Positions 1,849 through 42,522 of a stretch of 64,000 nucleotides of DNA are shown in pieces. Position numbers and translations under genes: made by a program. Source of the stretch: Oleisolibacter albus (GTDB lineage Bacteria; Pseudomonadota; Alphaproteobacteria; Azospirillales; Azospirillaceae); assembly GCF_003336875.1 (NCBI RefSeq), contig NZ_QGNJ01000007.1, positions 186,001 to 250,000 of the forward strand. Direction: 5' to 3'. The notes below the pieces were generated by a model that was not told the DNA's origin, ran no database searches, and saw nothing but the letters and a program-made list of their open reading frames with translations. Every line of letters starts with the position of its first letter. The first letter of the stretch is position 1.

Positions 1849-2514
1849 TCAGCGGATGGGGGTACGTTTGTCGAGATGGCGGGCCAGCGCCTCGCCACCG
1901 GATTGCAGCAGTTGCACCAGAACCACCAGGATCAGCACCACGGCCAGCATCATCTCGGGCATGAAGCGCTGATAACCGTAGCGGATGCCGAGATCGCCCA
2001 GGCCACCGCCGCCCACGGCGCCGACCATGGCCGAATACCCGACCAGGCTGACCGCCGCCAGGGTCAGGCCGCGCAGGATGCCGGCGCGGGCCTCCGGCAG
2101 CAGCACCTTGGCGACGATCTGGCCGGGGCTGGCGCCCATGGCCTGGGCGGCCTCCACCAGGCCGCGGTCCACCTCGCGCACCGCCGCTTCGACGACGCGG
2201 GCGATGAAGGGGACGGCGGCCAGGGTCAGCGGCACTGTCGCGGCCGCCGTGCCGATGGAGGTGCCGGTGATGGCCCGGGTCAGCGGCACGATGGCCACCA
2301 CCAGGATGATGAAGGGGGTGGAGCGGGCGGCATTGACCACCAGCCCGACCGACCGTTGCAGCATCGGCCGCGGCAGCAGGTCCCCCGGTCCGGTCAGGGC
2401 CAGGAACAGCCCCAGCGGAATGCCGGCCAGACTGGCCAGGCCACCGGCCACCCCCACCATCAGCAGGGTCTGCAGCGTGGCGTCAGACAGCAGCGCGAAG
2501 AGCTGGGGCGACAT
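1849..2514 (-). CDS. metI: Methionine ABC transporter permease
   Basis: Inner-membrane permease of the methionine importer, 221 residues with five or six hydrophobic helices. The binding-protein-dependent transport signature is visible in the AAQAMGASPGQIVAKVLLPEA region, which contacts the ATPase. The ATG at 2514 is preceded by GAGG and lies inside the end of metN (32-base overlap), so the two are translationally coupled. A TTG two codons upstream is a less likely start. Confidence 0.93.
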   Translation of the reverse strand: MSPQLFALLSDATLQTLLMVGVAGGLASLAGIPLGLFLALTGPGDLLPRPMLQRSVGLVVNAARSTPFIILVVAIVPLTRAITGTSIGTAAATVPLTLAAVPFIARVVEAAVREVDRGLVEAAQAMGASPGQIVAKVLLPEARAGILRGLTLAAVSLVGYSAMVGAVGGGGLGDLGIRYGYQRFMPEMMLAVVLILVVLVQLLQSGGEALARHLDKRTPIR

Positions 2515-3571
2515 GGCCAAGAACCTCGATCTGGGCGCCCGCCGCCGTCATGGCGGCCAGGGCATGGTCCACCGCGGCGGCGGATCCGGTGAGTTCGACG
2601 ACGAAGGCGGCAAAGGGCTGGTCGCGCAGCGGCTGGACCCGGCCCGCCAGAAGCATGGCATCCACCCCGGCCTGGGCCGCCGCACGGCCCAGCAGCGGCT
2701 GGGCGGCCGCCGGCCCCGCGGCGGTAAAGCGGACAATGGTGCTGCCGCCGGGCACCGGCGCGGACACCAGTCTGGCGGCCATTTCCGCCGGCAGCACGGC
2801 CCCGGTCTCGTCCACCAGGAAGGTGCGGGTCGTGGGCTGCTGCGGCCGGGCAAACACCTGCTCCACCGGCCCATCCTCGATGATCCGGCCGGATTCCAGC
2901 ACCACCACGCGGTCGGCGACCTGACGCACCACCGCCATCTCGTGCGTCACCAGCAGCACGGTCAGACCGAGATCGCGGTTGATACGGGCCAGCAGTTCCA
3001 GGATCTGGCGCGTGGTTTCCGGGTCCAGGGCCGAGGTGGCCTCGTCACAGAGCAGAACGCCGGGATTGGGCGCCAGGGCGCGGGCGATGCCGACGCGCTG
3101 CTTCTGCCCGCCCGACAGTTGCGAGGGATAGCGGTCCGCCTTGTCGGCCAACCCGACCAGATCCAGCAGCTCGGCCACTCGGGGGCCGATGCGGGCCGTC
3201 TCCCACCCCGCCAGTTCCAGCGCCAGGGCGACATTGCCGGCCACGGTGCGGTTGGCCAGAAGATTGAAATGCTGGAAGATCATGCCGATGGAGCGGCGCG
3301 CCTGGCGCAGCGCCGGTGGCGCCAGCCCGGTCAGCTCAAGGTCGCCCAGATGGACCCGGCCGCTGTCCGGCCGTTCCAGCAGGTTGACACAGCGCAACAA
3401 CGAGCTTTTGCCGGCCCCGCTGGGACCGACGATGGCCGTGACCGACCCGGCGGCGACCGTCAGGTCGATGCCGTCGAGAGCCGGAACGGCCACACCCTTG
3501 CCCTTGGCGGCATAGGATTTGCGGATCTGGTCCAGCCGGATGGCCGGCGCTCCGCGGGACTGCGCTTCCAT
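2483..3571 (-). CDS. metN: Methionine ABC transporter ATP-binding protein with C-terminal NIL domain
   Basis: ATPase of the MetNIQ importer, 362 residues. Walker A is GPSGAGKSS, the signature motif LSGGQKQRVGIARAL, Walker B VLLCDEATSALD, and the H-loop VTHEM. After about residue 265 a NIL/ferredoxin-like domain follows; in MetN of E. coli this domain binds methionine and inhibits transport, so the same feedback is expected here. First gene of metN-metI-metQ. Its leader carries a SAM-II-like element (separate entry), which fits control by S-adenosylmethionine. Confidence 0.94.
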   Translation of the reverse strand: MEAQSRGAPAIRLDQIRKSYAAKGKGVAVPALDGIDLTVAAGSVTAIVGPSGAGKSSLLRCVNLLERPDSGRVHLGDLELTGLAPPALRQARRSIGMIFQHFNLLANRTVAGNVALALELAGWETARIGPRVAELLDLVGLADKADRYPSQLSGGQKQRVGIARALAPNPGVLLCDEATSALDPETTRQILELLARINRDLGLTVLLVTHEMAVVRQVADRVVVLESGRIIEDGPVEQVFARPQQPTTRTFLVDETGAVLPAEMAARLVSAPVPGGSTIVRFTAAGPAAAQPLLGRAAAQAGVDAMLLAGRVQPLRDQPFAAFVVELTGSAAAVDHALAAMTAAGAQIEVLGHVAPALRAAV

Positions 3572-3616
3572 GGCACTTCAACCAAACCAGCGCCACGGCG
3601 GCGGGCAGACCCGCGC

Positions 3617-3666
3617 GGCGCTTTAGCATTTGGTGACGCGGCGCAAGCTGCCCTCAACGAGCCGCG
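3617..3666 (-). promoter_or_regulatory. Candidate SAM-II-like riboswitch in the metN leader
   Basis: On the minus strand a 6-bp stem CGCGGC / GCCGCG closes an 18-base loop ending in CAGCTTGC and is followed by TCACCAAATGCTAAAGCGCC. This is the layout of the SAM-II (SAM_alpha) aptamer: P1 stem, a loop ending in CUUGC, then a tail with GCUAAA that folds back. The loop lacks a clear AUUU, which weakens the call. A nearly identical core occurs before sbp at 38400-38448. A GCGGG / CCCGC hairpin lies between the element and the metN start. Confidence 0.5.
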
Positions 3667-3792
3667 ATCCCGAAGGATGGCCCTATCCTGCCGCGCTCCC
3701 CCGGCTGCGTCCACCGCACAATCAACGGGGCTGATATGTTGTCCGCCCGGTTCAACAGCACCCGCCCGTAGATACGAACGCCGCAGACGCAA

Positions 3793-31851: not shown

Positions 31852-32354
31852 GACGGCTCTCCCGCCCGCAGATGGCGGCGCAGCAGCGACAGGGTCGGCG
31901 CGTCATCCTGGGCCGCCTGATAGGCGATGCTGAATTCGCCCAGCGCCCGACGCCAGGCGTCGGTCAGGCGCTCCGCCGGCACCTCCACCGTATCCACGCC
32001 GACGCGCGTCAGCATCAGATACTGGTCGGGGATGATGTGGCCGACGGCACGGATCTCGCCCTGCCAGTGATACCGCTCGCGTAGTTCGCGTGCGCCGGAG
32101 AAGGCGCGGCCATCGCGGAACTTCGGCAACTCCAGCGCCACCAGGGCCAGCGTGCCCAGATCCGGCGCGATCTCCCCCACCAGCTGGTGGCTTTTCAGAC
32201 GCACGCCATACCGCCGGCCAGGGGGCAGGGCGTCGTGCAGCGTGCGCCAGCGCTCCAGCGGGACCAGCACGTCAACACCGTCGGGCAACGGGTCATCATC
32301 CGTCACGGCAACGAAACGATCCTCGACGACCGTGCCGTTCTTAAGCAGCGGCAT
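31848..32354 (-). CDS. DUF934 protein of the sulfite reduction operon
   Basis: 168 residues, single DUF934 domain: VLVPLERW, GVRLKSHQLVGEIAPDLGTLALVALELPKFRDGRAFSG in outline, YHWQGEIRAVGHIIPDQYLMLTRVGVDTVEV. DUF934 proteins nearly always sit beside ferredoxin-type cysI and cysH; a supporting role in sulfite reduction is likely but the activity is unknown. ATG at 32354 overlaps the cysI stop by 14 bases; an upstream in-frame codon is less likely. Confidence 0.88.
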   Translation of the reverse strand: MPLLKNGTVVEDRFVAVTDDDPLPDGVDVLVPLERWRTLHDALPPGRRYGVRLKSHQLVGEIAPDLGTLALVALELPKFRDGRAFSGARELRERYHWQGEIRAVGHIIPDQYLMLTRVGVDTVEVPAERLTDAWRRALGEFSIAYQAAQDDAPTLSLLRRHLRAGEPS

Positions 32355-34050
32355 GGATGGACTCCTTGAACGGGCCATGGCCCGTGCGGTTCAGCGTGTC
32401 GATGAAGCGCTCACCCGGCCGTCGCAGCGCCAGATAGGTGGACACCAGCGTCTCCACCGCATCCACCACCCCGTCGGCGCTGAAGCCGGGACCGGTGATC
32501 TCGCCCAGGGCGGCGGCGGGACTGGCGGACTCGCCACCCAGCAGGATCTGGAAGAACTCCTCGCCCTTCTTGTCGACGCCCAGGATGCCGATATGGCCGA
32601 CATGATGGTGACCGCAGGCGTTGATGCAGCCGCTGATCTTGATCTTCAGCTCGCCGATCTCGTGCTGGCGGTCCAGGTCGCCGAAGCGCTCGGAAATGCG
32701 CTGGGCGATGGGAATGGAACGGGCATTGGCCAGGGCGCAGTAATCCAGGCCGGGGCAGGCGATGATGTCGCTCACCAGGTTCAGGTTGGCGGTGCCCAGC
32801 CCCTCGGCCTCCAGCCCTTGCCACAAGGCGTGGAGATCATCCTGGCGCACATGGGCCAGCACCAGATTCTGCTCATGGCTGACCCGGACCTCGCCGAAGC
32901 TGAAGCGGTCGGCCAGATCGGCCAGGGCCTCCATCTGGTCGGAGGTGGCGTCGCCGGGGATGCCGCCGACGGGCTTCAGGCTGACCACGGCAATGGCGTA
33001 GCCAGGCTGGCGATGGGGATGGGTGTTGGAGCGCAGCCAGCGGGCGAAAGCCGGATCGGCGGCACGGGCCGCCTCCAACGCCGCCGACCGGGCGGGCAGC
33101 GCCTCGAAGGGCGGTGGGGCGAAATGGCTTTCGATGGCGGCGACGATGGCCGGGTCCAGGCGGAAACGGTCCCGCGGCAGGCGGGCATATTCCTCCTCCA
33201 CCAGATTGAGGAAGGCCTCCGCCCCCATCTCATGGACGGTGACCTTGATGCGCGCCTTGTAGATGTTGTCGCGCCGGCCCAGCTGGTTGTAGGTGCGCAG
33301 CACGGCTTCGAGATAGCCGATCAGCTCTGCCTCCGGCACGAAGTCGCGCGCCTTGACGGCCAGGAAGGGGCTGCGCCCCTGGCCACCGCCGACATAGACG
33401 GTGAAGCCCACCGCGCCATCCCTGTTGCGGGTGGCGATCAGGCCGATGTCGTGGACCTGCACCGCCGCCCGGTCCTGCGGGCTGCCGGAAATGGCGATCT
33501 TGAACTTGCGCGGCAGGAAGGTGAATTCCGGATGCAGAGTCGACCATTGCCGCAGGATCTCGGCATAGACGCGGGGATCGACGATCTCATCCGCCGCCGC
33601 CCCGCAATAATGGTCGGCGGTGACATTGCGGATGCAGTTGCCGCTGGTCTGGATGGCATGCATGTCCACCTCGGCCAGGGCGTCCAGCATGTCGGGGATG
33701 TCCTTCAGCGCCGGCCAGTTGAACTGGATGTTCTGGCGGGTGGTGAAGTGGCCGTAGCCCTTGTCCCAGCGCCGGCCGATCATGGCCAGCTGGCGCAGCT
33801 GCGGGCTGCGCAGCACGCCGTAGGGGATGGCGATGCGCAACATGTAGGCGTGCAGCTGCAGATAGACGCCGTTCATCAGCCGCAGCGGCTTGAACTCCTC
33901 CTCCGTCAACGCGCCGGACAGGCGGCGCTCGACCTGACCGCGGAACTGGGCCACGCGCTCACGCACGAAGGTCTTGTCAAAGGCATCGTAGCGATAGGCG
34001 CCGGCATGGGCATCGGGCGCCAGATTGGGGCGGCTCTGGATATGGGTCAT
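32341..34050 (-). CDS. cysI: Sulfite reductase haemoprotein (nitrite/sulfite reductase family)
   Basis: 569 residues. Two repeated ferredoxin-like halves with HFTTRQNIQFNWPAL and IQTSGNCIRNVTADHYCG, and the siroheme/4Fe-4S cysteines in ACPGLDYCALANARS and SGCINACGHHHVGHIG. Reduces sulfite to sulfide with six electrons. No CysJ flavoprotein gene is in the operon, so electrons probably come from ferredoxin. Length fits the alphaproteobacterial CysI of DUF2849/DUF934 operons. Confidence 0.93.
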   Translation of the reverse strand: MTHIQSRPNLAPDAHAGAYRYDAFDKTFVRERVAQFRGQVERRLSGALTEEEFKPLRLMNGVYLQLHAYMLRIAIPYGVLRSPQLRQLAMIGRRWDKGYGHFTTRQNIQFNWPALKDIPDMLDALAEVDMHAIQTSGNCIRNVTADHYCGAAADEIVDPRVYAEILRQWSTLHPEFTFLPRKFKIAISGSPQDRAAVQVHDIGLIATRNRDGAVGFTVYVGGGQGRSPFLAVKARDFVPEAELIGYLEAVLRTYNQLGRRDNIYKARIKVTVHEMGAEAFLNLVEEEYARLPRDRFRLDPAIVAAIESHFAPPPFEALPARSAALEAARAADPAFARWLRSNTHPHRQPGYAIAVVSLKPVGGIPGDATSDQMEALADLADRFSFGEVRVSHEQNLVLAHVRQDDLHALWQGLEAEGLGTANLNLVSDIIACPGLDYCALANARSIPIAQRISERFGDLDRQHEIGELKIKISGCINACGHHHVGHIGILGVDKKGEEFFQILLGGESASPAAALGEITGPGFSADGVVDAVETLVSTYLALRRPGERFIDTLNRTGHGPFKESIHAAA

Positions 34051-34061
34051 GGCCGGGACAC

Positions 34062-34394
34062 TCAGGCGGCGGTCGGGGATGACAGGAGGGTGGCTTGCAG
34101 GCCCAGATCGGGGCGGACGCTGGGTCCCAGCGCCTTCATGCGTTCGCGCATGTGCAGGGGGCGGGTCCGTCCGTCCACCACCTCCACATCGATGGGATAG
34201 ACATCGACCACCTGCTGCGTCCGCTCCGCCTCCTTGCCCACGGACAGGGCCGCGGCAATGGCTTCACCGCTGAACACCGCGGCGGCCTCCACCCGCTCCA
34301 CCCAACCATCGCCGTCCCCCAGCCAGACGGCCCGCCCATCCAGCAGACGGCTGGCGGTGATGGATTGCAGGGGACCTTTCGCCTTCACCAACAT
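34062..34394 (-). CDS. DUF2849 small protein
   Basis: 110 residues, recognised as DUF2849 by KAKGPLQSITASRLLDGRAVWLGDGDGWVE and the later VYPIDVEVVDGRTRPLHMRERMKALGPSVR in outline. A conserved member of alphaproteobacterial cys operons between cysG and cysI. Function unknown; cytosolic. Confidence 0.88.
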   Translation of the reverse strand: MLVKAKGPLQSITASRLLDGRAVWLGDGDGWVERVEAAAVFSGEAIAAALSVGKEAERTQQVVDVYPIDVEVVDGRTRPLHMRERMKALGPSVRPDLGLQATLLSSPTAA

Positions 34395-34417
34395 CGTTCA
34401 GAGCTTCCTTGCCAGGG

Positions 34418-35839
34418 TCAGACGGCTTCGCGCAGGGCGGGGGCGGCCATTTCGGCGATGCGGGCCGGATCGGCCAGCCGCACCACCTCCCCCACCACGA
34501 TCAGGGCCGGACCGGACAGGCCATGGCCGGAGGCCAGATCCGGCAAGGTGCCGAGCGTGCCCACCAGCAGCGTCTGATCGGGACGGGTGCCCTTCTCGAT
34601 CAGGGCGGCGGACGTGGCCCGGTCCATCCCGGCATCCATCAGCCGGCGGGCGATCAATCCCACCGTGGACAGGCCCATATAGATGACCAGCGTGTGCTTC
34701 AGCCGGGCCAGGGCCTGCCAGTCCAGGTCCGGCTCCGCGCTGTCGCCGACGCCGGCCTTGGCATGGCCGGTGATGAAGGTGACGCCCTGGGCCAGGCCGC
34801 GATGGGTGACGGGGATGGTGGCGGCGGCGCCGCACCCCAGCGCCGCGGTGATGCCGGGCACCACCTCGACCGGGATGGCGGCGGCGCGCAGCGCCTCCAC
34901 CTCCTCGCCGCCGCGCCCGAAGACGAAGGGATCGCCGCCCTTCAGCCGCACCACCCGGTGCCCGGCGGCGGCCTCCGCCACCAGCAGAGCGTTGATCGCC
35001 GCCTGGGACAGGGTATGACGGTCCTTGCTCTTGCCCACATAGAGGCGGCGGGCATCACGGCGCACATAATCCAGGATGCGGTCATCCACCAGCTTGTCAT
35101 GGACGACCACGTCGGCATCCTGCAGCACCCGCAGCGCCCGCAGGGTCAACAGATCGGGATCGCCGGGACCGGCGCCCACCAGGGTTACACGGCCGCCCGG
35201 CTCCTGCCCGTGGCCGGGATCGTTGACGGCCTGCAGCAGCTGCGCCCGGGCGCCGGCCTCGTCGCCGGCCAGGAAGCGGCGGGCCACCGGCCCGTCGACG
35301 ATGCGCTCCCAGAAGCGGCGCTTGGCCGTCTCCTCCTGCCGGGTCGCCTTCACGGCGCCGCGGAAACTGTCGAGAAAGGCCGCCAGCCGGCCCAGACCCG
35401 GCTCCAGCGCCGCCTCCAGCCGCTCGCGCAGGCGGCGGACCAGCACCGGGCTGGCGCCGCCGCTGGAAATGGCGATGGTGATGGGATCGCGGTCGATGAT
35501 GGCCGGCATGATGAAGCTGCACAGATCCGGCCGGTCCGGCACATTGACGGGAACCCCGGCATCGCGGGCCGCGGCGGCCAGGGCCGCATCCGCGTCCGGG
35601 TCGTCGCTGGCGGCGAAGGCCAGCACATGGCCGGCCACATCGTCCGGCCGCACGGGCCGGCGGTGCAGAACGGCGGCAAGGGCCGACAGCTCGGGCAGGG
35701 GATCGGGCGCGATGATGGTCAGACGGCAACCGCTGCGCGCCACCAGCCGTGCCTTGCGCAGGGCCAGTTCGCCACCGCCGGCCACCAGCACGGGCCGGCC
35801 GTCGAGCGGGAGCGAGACCGGAAACGTCTTCAGGGCCAT
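34418..35839 (-). CDS. cysG: Siroheme synthase (precorrin-2 dehydrogenase/ferrochelatase plus uroporphyrinogen-III methyltransferase)
   Basis: 473 residues. N-terminal CysG domain (about 1-210): FPVSLPLDGRPVLVAGGGELALRKARLV and NVPDRPDLCSFIMPAIIDRDPITIAISSGGASPVL in parts. C-terminal methyltransferase (about 215-460): VTLVGAGPGDPDLLTLRALRVL, KGGDPFVFGRGGEEVE, and THRGLAQGVTFITGH. It makes the siroheme of CysI. The ATG at 35839 has AGAGGATGGC before it. First gene of the seven-gene operon. Confidence 0.94.
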   Translation of the reverse strand: MALKTFPVSLPLDGRPVLVAGGGELALRKARLVARSGCRLTIIAPDPLPELSALAAVLHRRPVRPDDVAGHVLAFAASDDPDADAALAAAARDAGVPVNVPDRPDLCSFIMPAIIDRDPITIAISSGGASPVLVRRLRERLEAALEPGLGRLAAFLDSFRGAVKATRQEETAKRRFWERIVDGPVARRFLAGDEAGARAQLLQAVNDPGHGQEPGGRVTLVGAGPGDPDLLTLRALRVLQDADVVVHDKLVDDRILDYVRRDARRLYVGKSKDRHTLSQAAINALLVAEAAAGHRVVRLKGGDPFVFGRGGEEVEALRAAAIPVEVVPGITAALGCGAAATIPVTHRGLAQGVTFITGHAKAGVGDSAEPDLDWQALARLKHTLVIYMGLSTVGLIARRLMDAGMDRATSAALIEKGTRPDQTLLVGTLGTLPDLASGHGLSGPALIVVGEVVRLADPARIAEMAAPALREAV

Positions 35840-36262
35840 GCCATCCTCTATTACGCACCGCAATCGGTCCGCCAGAATTGGGCGCCGGCACCAACACTGT
35901 CGAGTGGAAATATTATTTTTACGTCAATATTGTGTTGTTATAAATGAACGCGCAGATCAAAAACCCATGTCGTTACAAACGGTTGAGCCGCCCGTTGCAG
36001 CAGCTTTATTCACCGCCTTGCGTCGGGCTCGACGCTGGCATGCTTGCCCCGCAGGAAGCGCCGTAGAATTGCCATATCCACGCTTCAATAGTGTTGAATA
36101 TGGATCGATGATCAGGTTCCGGAGAGTCCGGCGGCGGCAAGGCCGTGTGGCGATCAGGCAACGCGCCCGCTTCCGCCTTGGATCTCCAACAACTTGTCTG
36201 TTGAATCCGGCGCGCTGCGCCCCCATGACTCGGGACACAAGATCTGGAGCCGATCCGGCATC
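35840..36262. other. AT-rich divergent promoter region between cysG and the Rrf2 gene
   Basis: A sharp AT-rich island lies at about 35906-35946 in an otherwise GC-rich region, with two AATATT blocks, and is the likely promoter of the cys operon. Farther on, TTCAA-TAGTG-TTGAA (36084-36098) and the pair CCATAT / ATATGG (36072-36103) are dyads that could be regulator sites for the Rrf2 gene. No copy of the CCTAT-N7-ATAGG palindrome was found here. Confidence 0.45.
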
Positions 36263-36715
36263 ATGCTTTCCCAGCGCTGCAAATACGCTCTCCGGGCCGC
36301 CCTGTACCTGACCGACCAATGGCCTGGGGGCGGGACCGCCCGCATCGCCGACATCGCCGCCGCCGAGGGAATTCCCCGAAAATTCCTGGAAGCCATCCTG
36401 CTGGACCTGCGCAAGGGCGGACTGCTGGAAAGCTGCCGCGGACGCGACGGGGGCTATCGTCTGGCCAAGGCCCCGGACCATCTGTCCATCGGTGACATCA
36501 TCCGCGTCGTGGAAGGCACGCTGGCCCCGATCCAATGCGCCAGCCGCAACCGCTTCGAGCCCTGCGCCGACTGCGGCGATCCGCAGGAATGCGTGATCCG
36601 CTGGGCCATGCTGAAGGCCCGCGACGCCATGGCCGTGGTGCTGGATCGCTGTACGCTGGCCGAAGCGGCACGACAGCGTCATTCCCTGTCCACGCCCCTC
36701 GATTTCGTGATCTGA
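36263..36715 (+). CDS. Rrf2-family transcriptional regulator with four clustered cysteines
   Basis: 150 residues. An N-terminal winged helix (MLSQRCKYALRAALYL, ARIADIAAAEGIPRKFLEAILLDLRKGGLLES in outline, GRDGGYRLAK) and a dimerisation helix. Cys92, Cys101, Cys104 and Cys110 (QCASRNRFEPC, ADCGDPQEC) lie where IscR and NsrR hold their cluster, so Fe-S or cysteine sensing is plausible. Its place between the cys operon and the sulfate importer suggests a CymR-like sulfur regulator. An upstream in-frame start exists but the Rrf2 fold begins at 36263. Confidence 0.88.
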   Translation: MLSQRCKYALRAALYLTDQWPGGGTARIADIAAAEGIPRKFLEAILLDLRKGGLLESCRGRDGGYRLAKAPDHLSIGDIIRVVEGTLAPIQCASRNRFEPCADCGDPQECVIRWAMLKARDAMAVVLDRCTLAEAARQRHSLSTPLDFVI

Positions 36716-38319: not shown

Positions 38320-38343
38320 TCTACTGTAGTATGTTTTATTTTT

Positions 38344-38360
38344 CCTATTGACCGAATAGG
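38344..38360. promoter_or_regulatory. CCTAT-N7-ATAGG palindrome upstream of sbp
   Basis: CCTAT-TGACCGA-ATAGG followed by AATT, the same symmetric arms and spacing as at 36787-36803. Candidate operator for the Rrf2-family protein at 36263. It lies ahead of the SAM-II-like element, as expected for a promoter site. Confidence 0.6.
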
Positions 38361-38399
38361 AATTAGGAGTCAGCCTTCCTTGCGGCGGCCTGCACCGCC

Positions 38400-38448
38400 C
38401 GCGGCAATTTCCGCTCCGCTTGCGCCGCGTCACCAAACGCTAAGCGCC
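38400..38448 (+). promoter_or_regulatory. Candidate SAM-II-like riboswitch in the sbp leader
   Basis: Stem CGCGGC (38400-38405) / GCCGCG (38424-38429) encloses an 18-base loop that begins AATTT and ends CGCTTGC, followed by TCACCAAACGCTAAGCGCC. The AUUU near the start of the loop, CUUGC before the 3' stem strand and GCUAA in the tail match the SAM-II plan. The run from CTTGC to GCTAA is identical to the metN leader except for one base. A CCACGA / TCGTGG hairpin follows at 38447-38465. Confidence 0.6.
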
Positions 38449-38583
38449 ACGATCCGGCGTCGTGGTGCCCGAATGACGGGAGAGTCCGCTTTGTCCGCGA
38501 CAAAATCCGAATTTCATGGCCTCATGGCGTCCAGCATCTCCAGCTTTGCGCAGGGATACCCTGCTGGACCAGGTCCGGTTCCG

Positions 38584-38601
38584 GGCCGCGATCCCGCGGC
38601 C
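38584..38601 (+). terminator. Hairpin in the sbp leader, possible attenuator
   Basis: A perfect 7-bp stem GGCCGCG / CGCGGCC with a 4-base loop, 24 bases before the sbp ATG and next to its ribosome site. It could be the expression platform of the SAM-II-like element; this is inference. Confidence 0.35.
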
Positions 38602-38625
38602 TTAACAGCGAAGGGAGAGTGAGCA

Positions 38626-39642
38626 ATGTTCGGCATTCGTCGTGCGGCCGTTGCCGCTGTTCTCGCCCTTGCCGTCGGCGGTGCCGCCGCTCTGGCCCAA
38701 TCCAAATCCGTCGAGCTGCTGAATGTCAGCTACGATCCGACGCGGGAATTCTACAAGGAGTTCAACCAGGCCTTCGCCGAGGCCTACAAGCGGCAGACCG
38801 GCACCGAAGTGACGGTGAAGGCCAGCCATGGCGGCTCCGGCAAACAGGCGCGCTCCGTGATCGACGGGCTGGAGGCGGACGTGGTCACGCTGGCGCTGGC
38901 CTATGACATCGACGCCATCGCCGAGACCGGCAAGCTGCTGCCGGAGGACTGGCAGTCGCGCCTGCCCTACAATTCCACCCCCTACACCAGCACCATCGTC
39001 TTCCTGGTGCGCAAGGGCAATCCCAAGGGCATCAAGGACTGGGACGATCTGGTGAAGCCGGACATCCAGGTGATCACGCCCAATCCCAAGACCTCGGGCG
39101 GCGCGCGCTGGAACTATCTGGCCGCCTGGGGGTATGCCCAGGACAAGGCCGGCGGCGACGAGGCGGCGGCCCGCGCCTTCGTGGAGGAACTGTACCGGCA
39201 TGTGCCGGTTCTGGACACCGGCGCCCGCGGCGCCACCACCACCTTCGTCCAGCGCGGTATCGGCGACGTGCTGCTGGCCTGGGAGAACGAGGCCTTCCTC
39301 GCCATCGAGGAGCTGGGTCCGGACAAGGTGGAGATCGTCGTCCCCTCCAAATCCATCCTGGCCGAACCGCCCGTGGCCCTGGTCGACAAGAATGCCGATC
39401 GCAAGGGCACCCGCACCGTGGCCGAAGCCTATCTCACCTATCTCTATACGCCCGAGGGACAGGAACTGGCGGCCAAGCACTATTACCGCCCGCGCCTGCC
39501 GCAGCTGGCCCAGAAATATGCCGACCGCTTCCCCAAGCTGGACCTGTTCGATATCGGCCGGTTCGGCGGCTGGAAGCAGGCCCAGAAGGTCCATTTCGCC
39601 GATGGCGGCGTTTTCGACCAGATCTACAAGCCTGGACGGTAA
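38626..39642 (+). CDS. sbp: Sulfate/thiosulfate-binding periplasmic protein
   Basis: 338 residues. Signal peptide 1-24 ([19 protein letters not shown]). Mature protein with the sulfate-binding signatures [45 protein letters not shown] in parts, and [18 protein letters not shown]. Delivers sulfate or thiosulfate to Cys[12 protein letters not shown] precedes the ATG. First gene of sbp-cysT-cysW-cysA. Confidence 0.95.
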
Positions 39643-39648
39643 GGTGTG

Positions 39649-40506
39649 ATGGCCGGACGCCTGACGATTCTCCCTGCCTGGCTCCGGCCTGAACGCACGG
39701 TCATCCCCGGCCTCGGGCTGACGCTCGGGGTTACGGTGACCTATCTCACGCTCATTGTCCTGCTGCCCCTGGCGGCCTTGGCTCTGCGCCCGGCGGAGCT
39801 GGGGCTGGGCGGCATCTGGGACGCCGTCACCCAACCGCGGGTCCTGGCCGCCCTGCGGCTGAGCTTCGGGGCGGCCCTGCTGGGCGCCGGCATCAACGCC
39901 GTGTTCGGGTTGATGGTGGCCTGGATGCTGGTCCGCTATGATTTCCCGTTGAAGCGGGTGATCGACGCCATCGTCGATCTGCCCTTCGCCCTGCCGACGG
40001 CCGTGGCCGGCATCGCCCTGACTTCCCTCTACGCCCCCAACGGCTGGGTCGGCCAATTGCTGGACCCGCTGGGCATCAAGGTGGCCTTCACGCCGCTGGG
40101 CGTCATCGTCGCCACCACCTTCATCGGCCTGCCCTTCGTCGTCCGCACGGTCCAGCCGGTGCTGGAGGATCTGGAGAGCGAGCTGGAGGAGGCGGCCGGC
40201 AGCCTCGGCGCCAACCGCTGGGAAACCTTCTCCCGCGTCATCTTCCCCCTGATCCTGCCGGCCTTGCTGACCGGCACCGCCCTGGCCTTCGCCCGCGCCG
40301 TGGGCGAGTACGGCTCCATCATCTTCATCGCCGGCAACATGCCCATGGTCTCGGAGATCGCCCCCCTGCTGATCGTCATCAAGCTGGAGCAGTTCGATTA
40401 TGCCGGGGCCGCGGCCATCGGCCTGACCATGCTGGTGGCCAGTTTCCTGATCCTGTTGATGGTCAATCTGCTGCAGCGCTGGAGCCGGCGCTGGTCCGGC
40501 GAGTAG
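39649..40506 (+). CDS. cysT: Sulfate ABC transporter permease CysT
   Basis: 285 residues with six hydrophobic helices. The permease signature around [21 protein letters not shown] contacts Cys[26 protein letters not shown] in parts is typical of CysT/CysU. Starts 6 bases after the sbp stop; a GTG one codon earlier is an alternative. Confidence 0.94.
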
Positions 40507-40519
40507 GGAAGGGGACAGC

Positions 40520-41440
40520 ATGGCCATTCCCATCGATACCGCCGACGACACGGAAGGCCTCCGCAGCGAGGCGTTCGTCGTGACCATGCCGCCGCCAAGA
40601 CCGCGCGGCGCCCTGGACGATCCGCTCTGGGTCAAGCTGCTGGTCAGCGGCATCGGCCTGCTGTTCCTGCTGCTGTTCATCCTGTTGCCGCTGCTGGCCG
40701 TGTTCACCGAGGCGCTGCGCCGGGGCGTGCAGACCTATCTGGAGGCACTGACCGAGCCCGACGCCCTGGCGGCCATCCGGCTGACCCTGGTCGTGGCGGC
40801 CATCGCCGTGCCGGCCAATCTGGTGTTCGGCGTCTGTGCCGCCTGGGCCATCACCAAGCACCGCTTCCCCGGCAAGTCGCTGCTGCTGACCCTGATCGAC
40901 CTGCCCTTCAGCGTCAGCCCCGTCATCTCCGGTCTGGTCTATGTGCTGCTGTTCGGCGCCCATGGCTGGTTCGGCAGTTGGCTGCGCGACCATGGGATCC
41001 ACATCGTCTTCGCGGTGCCGGGGCTGGTGCTGGCCACCGTCTTCGTGACCTTCCCCTTCATCGCCCGCGAACTGATCCCGCTGATGCAGGCGCAGGGGCG
41101 GGACGAGGAGGAGGCGGCCATCACCCTCGGCGCCTCGGGCTGGCAGACCTTCCGCCGGGTCACCCTGCCCAATATCCGCTGGGGCCTGCTGTATGGCGTG
41201 CTGCTGTGCAACGCCCGCGCCATGGGCGAGTTCGGCGCCGTCAGCGTCGTCTCCGGCCATATCCGCGGGGAGACCAACACCATGCCGCTGCATGTGGAGA
41301 TCCTCTACAACGAGTACAATTTCGTCGCCGCCTTCGCCGTGGCCTCGCTGCTGGCCCTGCTGGCCCTGGTGACCCTGGTGCTGAAGTCACTGCTGGAATG
41401 GCGCTACGGCGCCGAGCTGGCGGCCACACGCCGCCGTTGA
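40520..41440 (+). CDS. cysW: Sulfate ABC transporter permease CysW
   Basis: 306 residues, six helices after a cytosolic N-terminus of about 40 residues. Signature [22 protein letters not shown], and [29 protein letters not shown] in parts, which is typical of CysW. GGGAAGGGGACAGC precedes the ATG. Partner of CysT in the membrane channel. Confidence 0.95.
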
Positions 41441-41481: not shown

Positions 41482-42522
41482 ATGAGCATCCAGATTTCCG
41501 GTATCAACAAGCGGTTCGGCGGGTTCACGGCGGTCGACCATGTGGACCTGTCCATCGCCAGCGGCGAGCTGATGGCCCTGCTGGGACCGTCGGGATCGGG
41601 CAAGACCACATTGCTGCGCATCATCGGCGGGCTGGATTTCGCCGACAGCGGCCAGCTGCTGATCGACGGGGTGGATTCCACCGTGTCGGAACCGCACGCC
41701 CGCCGCGTGGGCTTCGTCTTCCAGCATTACGCCCTGTTCCGGCACATGACGGTGTTCGAGAATGTGGCCTTCGGCCTGCGCGTCGCCCGGCGCAGGCCGC
41801 GCCCGGCGGAAGCGGCCATCCGCGACAAGGTCATGGGGCTGCTCGATCTGGTGCAGCTGGCGCCGCTGGCCCAGCGCTATCCCAACCAGCTGTCGGGCGG
41901 CCAGCGCCAGCGTGTGGCCCTGGCCCGGGCGCTGGCCACCGAGCCCAGCGTGCTGCTGCTGGACGAGCCCTTCGGCGCCCTCGACGCCAAGGTGCGCAAG
42001 GATCTGCGGCGCTGGCTGCGCGACATCCACAAGGGCATGGGCGTCACCACCGTGTTCGTGACCCACGACCAGGAGGAGGCGCTGGAGCTGGCCGACCGCG
42101 TCACCATCCTGCATCAGGGGCGGGTCGAGCAGGTCGGCACGCCGGCGGAGGTCTATGATCATCCGGCCTCGGCCTTCGTCTGCGACTTCCTGGGCGGCGG
42201 CACGCGGCTGGACTGCACCCTGGCCGGCGATCATGCCGATATCGCCGGGCTGACGGTGCCGCTCGCCAATGATGTGGACGGGCGCGGCGCGGGCATCGCC
42301 TTCGTCCGTCCGCACGATGTGGAGATCCTGCCCGCCGCGGCCGGCGCCGCGGCCCGGATCGCCGCCCTGCATCCGGTCGGGCCGGAGCTGCGCGTGGATC
42401 TCGATCTGGCCGGGCACCGGCTGGAAGCGGTGCTGGACCGGCAATCGCCCGAAGCCATCGGCCTGTCGCCGGGTGCCCTGGTCGGCGTGCGCCTGCGCCG
42501 CGCCAACGCCTATCCCGCCTGA
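41482..42522 (+). CDS. cysA: Sulfate ABC transporter ATPase CysA
   Basis: 346 residues. Walker [11 protein letters not shown]-loop [18 protein letters not shown], signature [15 protein letters not shown], Walker [17 protein letters not shown]-loop [10 protein letters not shown]. The C-terminal domain (about 240-346, TOBE-like) includes FVRPHDVEI. Powers the CysTW channel. Starts 41 bases after cysW. Confidence 0.95.

Follow-up and report, generated by a model that had tools for sequence, protein, structure and literature searches.

The main finding of this study is that the stem-loop element in the leader of the sulfate importer operon sbp-cysTWA is, judging from comparison across many genomes, a real and conserved SAM-II-like regulatory RNA. 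The reading we favor, and hold to be quite likely, is that it belongs to a diverged SAM-II-like riboswitch subtype of Alphaproteobacteria acting on translation starts; our confidence is tempered because the copy in front of sbp, besides other departures, lacks the start-region match seen in its relatives. The window—the whole 64,000-nt stretch of Oleisolibacter albus DNA that was analyzed—holds a second copy before metNIQ. The most interesting part of the picture lies beyond positions 38400–38448, to which the preliminary description had confined the element: it is the class-wide pairing of the aptamer with cysteine-rich short ORFs.

In the window, the element before sbp spans 38399–38466 on the forward strand and scores 77.0 bits with R1, a covariance model built from 16 copies including this one. 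The parts originally read from the letters are all in place: the stem CGCGGC/GCCGCG (P1, 38400–38405 with 38424–38429), an 18-nt loop (38406–38423) with AATTT at its start and CTTGC at its end, and the tail CGCTAA (38438–38443). In SAM-II numbering, which follows the excerpted text of PMC3764141, the loop motif L1 AUUU occupies 38407–38410 (U10–U12 at 38408–38410), while the P2b pseudoknot core would be formed by UUGC (U20, U21, G22, C23) at 38420–38423 and GCUAA (G42–A46) at 38439–38443, after which the third A (A47) is absent. The copy thus has 12 of the 13 SAM-II pocket letters (U10–U12, U20–C23, G42–A47). The element continues past 38448 into a hairpin, CCACGA/UCGUGG (38447–38465, with arms at 38447–38452 and 38460–38465), which can be extended to 38444–38468. 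The suggestion that a hairpin sits right at the sbp ribosome site did not survive, as it ends 12 nt before the GGGAGAG at 38478–38484 and the sbp start at 38626 is preceded by a different GGGAGAG (38613–38619). Since the minimum-energy fold of this copy is no better than that of shuffled sequences (z −0.62; the metN copy has −1.88, L112 0.62 and L226 −0.63), support for the element is comparative rather than thermodynamic.

The comparative evidence concerns both the stems and the arrangement of the parts. In two alignments that were fitted to the model structure (A3 and A6), pairs change on both sides far more often than chance would produce. Among 69 distinct copies of the family, 96.8% of positions in 18 pairs are standard pairs versus 94.7% after shuffling, and seven pairs vary on both sides (two of the six in P1), a count that none of 500 shuffles reached. 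When class and family are taken together (80 distinct copies), 11 of the 12 P1 and hairpin pairs do so—five of six in P1 and all six in the hairpin—again with no shuffle of 500 as high, and 94.1% are paired versus 86.4% in shuffles and 30–56% in slid versions. All four P2b pairs are present and without variation, so covariation cannot test this core. A further helix, P2a, emerges independently of the model, from complementarity between the loop stretch ahead of GCUUGC and the nucleotides directly behind the hairpin (for example CGGAG/CTCCG, TGGAGC/GCTCCG and CGAGTTC/GAACTTG), with a mean of 10.08 over 124 distinct pairs versus 8.70 when partners are swapped between genera (maximum of 200, 9.09), against controls that, here and for the start region below, shuffle single nucleotides and not dinucleotides. 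The excess is positive in 36 of 46 genera and is seen without genus g3 (10.86 versus 9.34, maximum 10.04, 92 pairs); that large genus by itself, with 32 pairs, lacks it (mean z −0.23). This set omits L104, in which no hairpin end was found, L193, L196, L290 and nine low-scoring or canonical-like copies. Because the P2a partners lie directly behind it, the hairpin is best described as an insertion between P2b and P2a. Its 3′ arm, in turn, matches the region of the ribosome site and start codon (mean z −1.00 over 114 leaders, −0.06 when swapped; negative in 35 of 40 genera; L193 and 18 loci with inexact element ends omitted), and an SD-preceded start codon follows shortly behind the element in 161 of 173 copies. 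Two mutually exclusive states of this kind fit a translation switch, and the mode of action is probably that of SAM-II or SAM-V, at the start of translation. In the OFF state, SAM would close the pseudoknot and P2a, and the hairpin's 3′ arm would mask the ribosome site or start codon; in the ON state, when SAM is absent, the hairpin would form and leave the start free. The earlier idea of a hairpin switch at the ribosome site is supported by relatives as far as a link to translation starts goes, although the site adjacent to the window copy is not that of sbp. The inserted hairpin may illustrate the route by which a SAM-II aptamer turned into a translational switch.

The element is widespread within its class. 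With R1, 72 of 82 family genomes yield 109 places. In a class-wide sample of 289 genomes, 59 (44 of 223 genera) yield 77, ten of which are family places already counted and one of which, on G279 contig 39, is outside the locus set. By blastn, 38330–38625 matches 73 of the 82 family genomes with at most three copies each, nearly always over query positions 64–147; one of the 73, G057, matches only at 157–183, outside the element. R1 gives nothing convincing among 80 sbp loci from other taxa, 456 kb in total and including Azospirillum picis L017 (best 17.1 bits, E 0.11), and in 200 genomes of the phylum, a set whose share outside the class is not stated, all nine that matched are of the same class. 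The genome of O. albus has copies before sbp, before metNIQ and, on contig 40, before a short ORF ending in cysteine and a small protein gene.

The genes behind these copies suggest what would be controlled. In the window, the forward-strand operon consists of sbp, the substrate-binding protein (38626–39642; NF008022, 519.3 bits, cut-off 288), the permeases cysT (39646–40506; TIGR02139, 411.5 bits, cut-off 246.1) and cysW (40520–41440; TIGR02140, 424.4 bits, cut-off 329.1), and the ATPase cysA (41485–42522; TIGR00968, 368.3 bits, cut-off 342.75). The second copy (3592–3667, reverse strand; R1 65.8 bits) keeps A47, has G for U10 and a longer hairpin, and lies 20 nt before the start of a metN-like ATPase (2483–3571; best NCBIfam match TIGR02314 MetN, 347.1 bits, under the cut-off of 499.7), which is followed on the same strand by a metI-like permease (1849–2520; NF008049 MetI, 211.4 bits, cut-off 212) and a metQ-like lipoprotein (1050–1898; TIGR00363 MetQ/NlpA, 252.5 bits, cut-off 228.85; Pfam Lipoprotein_9). 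Given these two leaders, high SAM would lower both sulfate and methionine import. At the 109 family places, many of them covered for only 1.5 kb downstream, the first downstream ORF resembles MetQ in 38, Sbp in 12, MetN in 11, a CysA-like ATPase in one and no window protein in 47; the 12 Sbp places come from the genus (all 11 genomes) and from G076. Next genes in sampled loci include metZ (L247, L262), metY (L243), metX (L284), cysG (L255) and a cysG-type gene (L238), MetN-type ATPases (L229, L235), a MetQ-type protein (L285), NMT1-type binding proteins (L115, L250), TauD (L157), a peroxiredoxin (L240), an SBP_bac_11 binding protein (L256) and, under all cut-offs, a nitrite/sulfite-reductase-like protein (L234); that of L230 has no Pfam match. 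A guess that the 422-aa protein of L183 is a porin received no support from Pfam. The sulfate-importer context, as first proposed, is supported by relatives, with sulfate import being just one target among several. A motif named sul1 is known upstream of sulfate genes.

The element stands before sbp throughout the genus, so at that level the link to sulfate is firm; the window's own sulfate copy, from which several features are missing, may be weakened: it is a divergent member that may sense SAM weakly. That it is instead a decaying, nonfunctional remnant of a subtype functional elsewhere seems to us rather unlikely, even though this copy alone combines a missing A47, the absence of a P2a match (z −0.6) and of a match between hairpin arm and start region (z +0.82, versus −2.26 for the window metN copy), and a short ORF devoid of cysteine. 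This candidate ORF (38491–38622, forward strand, 43 codons from a TTG start, behind the GGGAGAG at 38478–38484) is in frame with sbp, stops one codon ahead of its ATG and may not be translated. In this leader the sbp start lies 159 nt behind the element versus ~29–54 nt behind the hairpin in nine genus mates; in G066 a short ORF, MTQAC, comes first, ahead of sbp. What speaks against decay is that P1, AUUU, CUUGC, GCUAA and the hairpin, with up to nine pairs, are intact, and that the form with two A residues is also found twice in genus g2, in the identical loci L106 and L185—the only other copy lacking A47 among the 69 distinct family copies.

The second important finding concerns the short ORFs themselves. 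After removal of L196 and L290, the first SD-preceded ORF behind 173 copies is at most 60 codons long in 121, longer in 40 and neither in 12; it is short in 90 of 108 family copies (52 of the 90 from genus g3) and in 31 of 65 from the rest of the class. These ORFs start a median of 24 nt behind the hairpin and have extremes as short as MTTCCP and MTCCCP. Cysteine makes up 9.8% of their residues versus 0.69% in the 40 longer ORFs, and among 110 distinct short ORFs of at least five codons, from 28 genera, it occurs in the last eight residues in 99, with two or more in 70; across 200 nucleotide shuffles the corresponding means are 26 and 3.1 and the highest counts 37 and 7. Genera with at least one such ORF number 21 of 28, and 18 have one with two or more cysteines. 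In the family, 81 of 82 distinct short ORFs follow the rule, the sole exception being the window's own. Cysteine codons near the end of the ORF could provide a second input, cysteinyl-tRNA, and we tentatively propose, with somewhat less than even confidence, a class-wide two-input sulfur leader in which the operon would be on only when SAM and cysteinyl-tRNA are both low (an AND gate). Low SAM would allow the short ORF to be translated, low cysteinyl-tRNA would stall the ribosome at the terminal cysteine codons, and stalling might act downstream via Rho or translational coupling, both of which are guesses. The odds of this proposal are reduced by the rest of the class, where no more than 18 of 28 distinct short ORFs, from 13 of 20 genera, carry the cysteine end.

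The counterpart of this proposal, that the short ORFs are not regulatory and owe their cysteine to regional sequence constraints, appears unlikely. It would agree with the absence of any excess of terminators, structure or pairing behind the ORFs in a sample of 41 of the 107 leaders, drawn from 21 genera with no more than four each, where the fold z is −0.06, the pairing z −0.02 versus −0.11 when swapped, and terminator-like sequences number four versus one to six in ten shuffles; a classical attenuator, sought in these leaders, was set aside on that basis. It would also agree with frame +1, in which TGC or TGT is common in the last eight positions as well (at least one in 70 of 110 and more than one in 22), a feature we put down to the leucine and methionine codons that precede cysteine. 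However, the gap between real and shuffled ORFs is wide, frame +2 has cysteine in only five of the 110 and never twice, and the cysteines are concentrated in the last three residues of sequences that otherwise differ strongly between genera.

Kinship with SAM-II, the plan originally recognized in the window, is supported by the relatives. No Rfam family matches the window at gathering cut-offs. In the leader, SAM_alpha (RF00521) aligns end to end over 38391–38462 and falls short of its cut-off of 36 (12.5 bits, E 2.7, which corresponds to ~6e-4 for a family named beforehand, 2.7/4227); the other family matching at E ≤ 5, M23, does so on the opposite strand (16.8 bits, cut-off 41.2, E 1.3). The metN copy scores 15.4 bits against the same SAM_alpha cut-off of 36. 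Of 16 family loci, all but L104 and L106 have a SAM_alpha match at the element (14 loci, 19.3–28.1 bits), none of the 16 reaching the cut-off; of 20 class loci, 17 have one at 20.1–36.8 bits, and L231 and L246 give no match at all. Only in L229 (36.8 bits) is the element itself over the cut-off; a 38-bit match in L243 is a separate copy upstream. Nearly all scanned copies are therefore under the Rfam threshold, and intermediates exist: L198–L200 score 31.0–36.1 bits with R1 and 35.8–43.2 bits with SAM_alpha, and at least three of 61 class places with R1 scores of at least 45 bits (G215, G266, G315) overlap SAM_alpha matches over the cut-off. Such matches are present separately in 75 of 82 family genomes, including O. 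albus itself, where a canonical SAM-II (G000:C6:72169–72246, L113 2170–2247; 53.2 bits) precedes a gene that by eye is metZ-like, so the subtype is an addition. The letters tell the same story of kinship: among distinct family copies, U20, U21, G22, C23, G42, C43, U44, A45 and A46 are found in 69 of 69, U11 and U12 in all 68 with letters at those positions, U10 in 65 of 68 and A47 in 67 of 69, and over class and family GCUAA is found in 80 of 80 and the third A in 78 of 80. The window copy was not filed as a member of RF00521 because it has neither a score over the cut-off nor A47 nor P2a directly after the core. SAM-V (RF01726) was rejected as an identity: its model has no match in the window leader at E ≤ 5, and of 20 class loci only L230 and L238 match, both under the cut-off of 44 (22.3 and 24.2 bits).

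Because bases around the amino-acid end of the pocket have changed, we considered a different ligand for this fold, such as some other adenosyl compound, in part or all of the copies. A47, which touches the amino-acid end of SAM according to PMC3764141, is missing from both L106 and the sulfate copy of the window, and these two share changes at loop positions 13, 14 and 17; where SAM-II has G8, most copies have A (46) or C (13), against 7 with G and 1 with T (n = 67); metN copies of the genus have G in place of U10; and ligand changes are known for close variants of a SAM aptamer (PMC10853860). We nonetheless regard a different ligand as quite improbable, because nearly all copies retain the other contact letters and because metX, metY and metZ, the usual SAM-II targets (PMC4239095), are among the targets here. 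Least credible of all, and in our view very improbable, is conservation as a protein-binding site on DNA: P1 and core letters are nearly fixed within the family and a perfect inverted repeat with an operator-like look, TTCCTATT-gaccg-AATAGGAA, lies at 38342–38362, ~38 nt 5′ of the element, but stem pairs that vary on both sides, matched P2a partners and the SD-preceded start behind 161 of 173 copies speak against it.

A SAM-II-like riboswitch subtype therefore remains our preferred reading, and its relation to known systems is instructive. It shares with SAM-II P1, the core UUGC/GC-U-AA, the AUUU loop, the SAM-contacting letters, alphaproteobacterial hosts and methionine-gene targets. It differs in the inserted hairpin, in its position before translation starts, in its mostly sub-threshold scores, and in targets that also include sulfate and methionine import and cysteine-rich short ORFs. 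By comparison, the SAM_alpha targets obtained with Rfam profiles in the accessible text of PMC4239095 are metY, metA, metX, metC, hom and metW, all of them methionine synthesis, in Rhizobiales and Rhodobacterales only. With SAM-V, the subtype shares a predicted H-type pseudoknot, a probable translational mode of action and a short P2a by the ribosome site; SAM-V is described in PMC6061858 and PMC11508383 as lying 3′ of SAM-II in a tandem. Several class genomes recall this arrangement: in L234, L241, L242 and L243 the subtype copy is the 3′ member of a pair with another SAM-II a short way 5′ of it, weak second matches occur in L254, L266, L271 and L272, and neighboring places occur in G151, G164, G185, G243, G245 and G342, which are partly the same loci. 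In L269 and L270, P1 and the CAAACGCUAAA tail are separated by ~20 extra nucleotides that could fold into a helix of their own. The SAM-II of Sinorhizobium meliloti metA also works at the level of translation and is followed by more than one start codon; its targets are metA and metZ, and a cysteine-rich ORF is not named in the available part of PMC9373788. Conversely, uORFC-8-2 before cysS in Rhodobacterales is a short ORF with tandem cysteine codons before sulfur and cysteine genes that includes terminators, which are not in excess here, and no aptamer is named at its start in the excerpt of PMC8632094. Mycobacterial polycysteine ORFs are a further case of such cysteine-codon attenuators (Canestrari 2020, cited in PMC13236596). 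Compared with a cysteine leader-peptide attenuator, the subtype has the cysteine-ending short ORF (the window sulfate copy does not), whereas the 41 leaders show no excess of terminators or alternative structure behind it. The B12 riboswitches of Mycobacterium tuberculosis likewise control a leader with a translated uORF needed downstream, with another ligand and RNA and, in the accessible text of PMC11260477, no mention of amino-acid-specific codons. Among listed open-access titles and abstract openings, with subscription literature mostly outside this set, none joins SAM-II to sulfate import or cysteine leader peptides. If our reading is true, alphaproteobacteria use RNA to sense SAM not only for methionine synthesis but also for the import of sulfate and methionine, the standard SAM_alpha profile mostly misses the subtype responsible, and an amino-acid leader peptide under a riboswitch would form a compact two-metabolite gate.

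Two further observations concern neighboring genes. Many cysteine-ending short ORFs are followed by a small protein of 64–104 aa (L112:3323–3571 and 15 other loci; alignment A5) with the pattern AxxIEVxGxxAGxVV..GFRFFAS, a search for which undercounts members. No Pfam or NCBIfam family matches more than one of the 16 (best E 0.0048), and the predicted fold, which has no PDB match at E ≤ 0.001, is strand-strand-strand-helix-helix with a mean pLDDT of 87.4. In the window, an Rrf2-type regulator gene (TIGR00738, 102.3 bits) lies at 36194–36715, and divergent ORFs on the reverse strand at 32341–35863, near the sulfate importer, look by eye like sulfite reductase and siroheme synthase.
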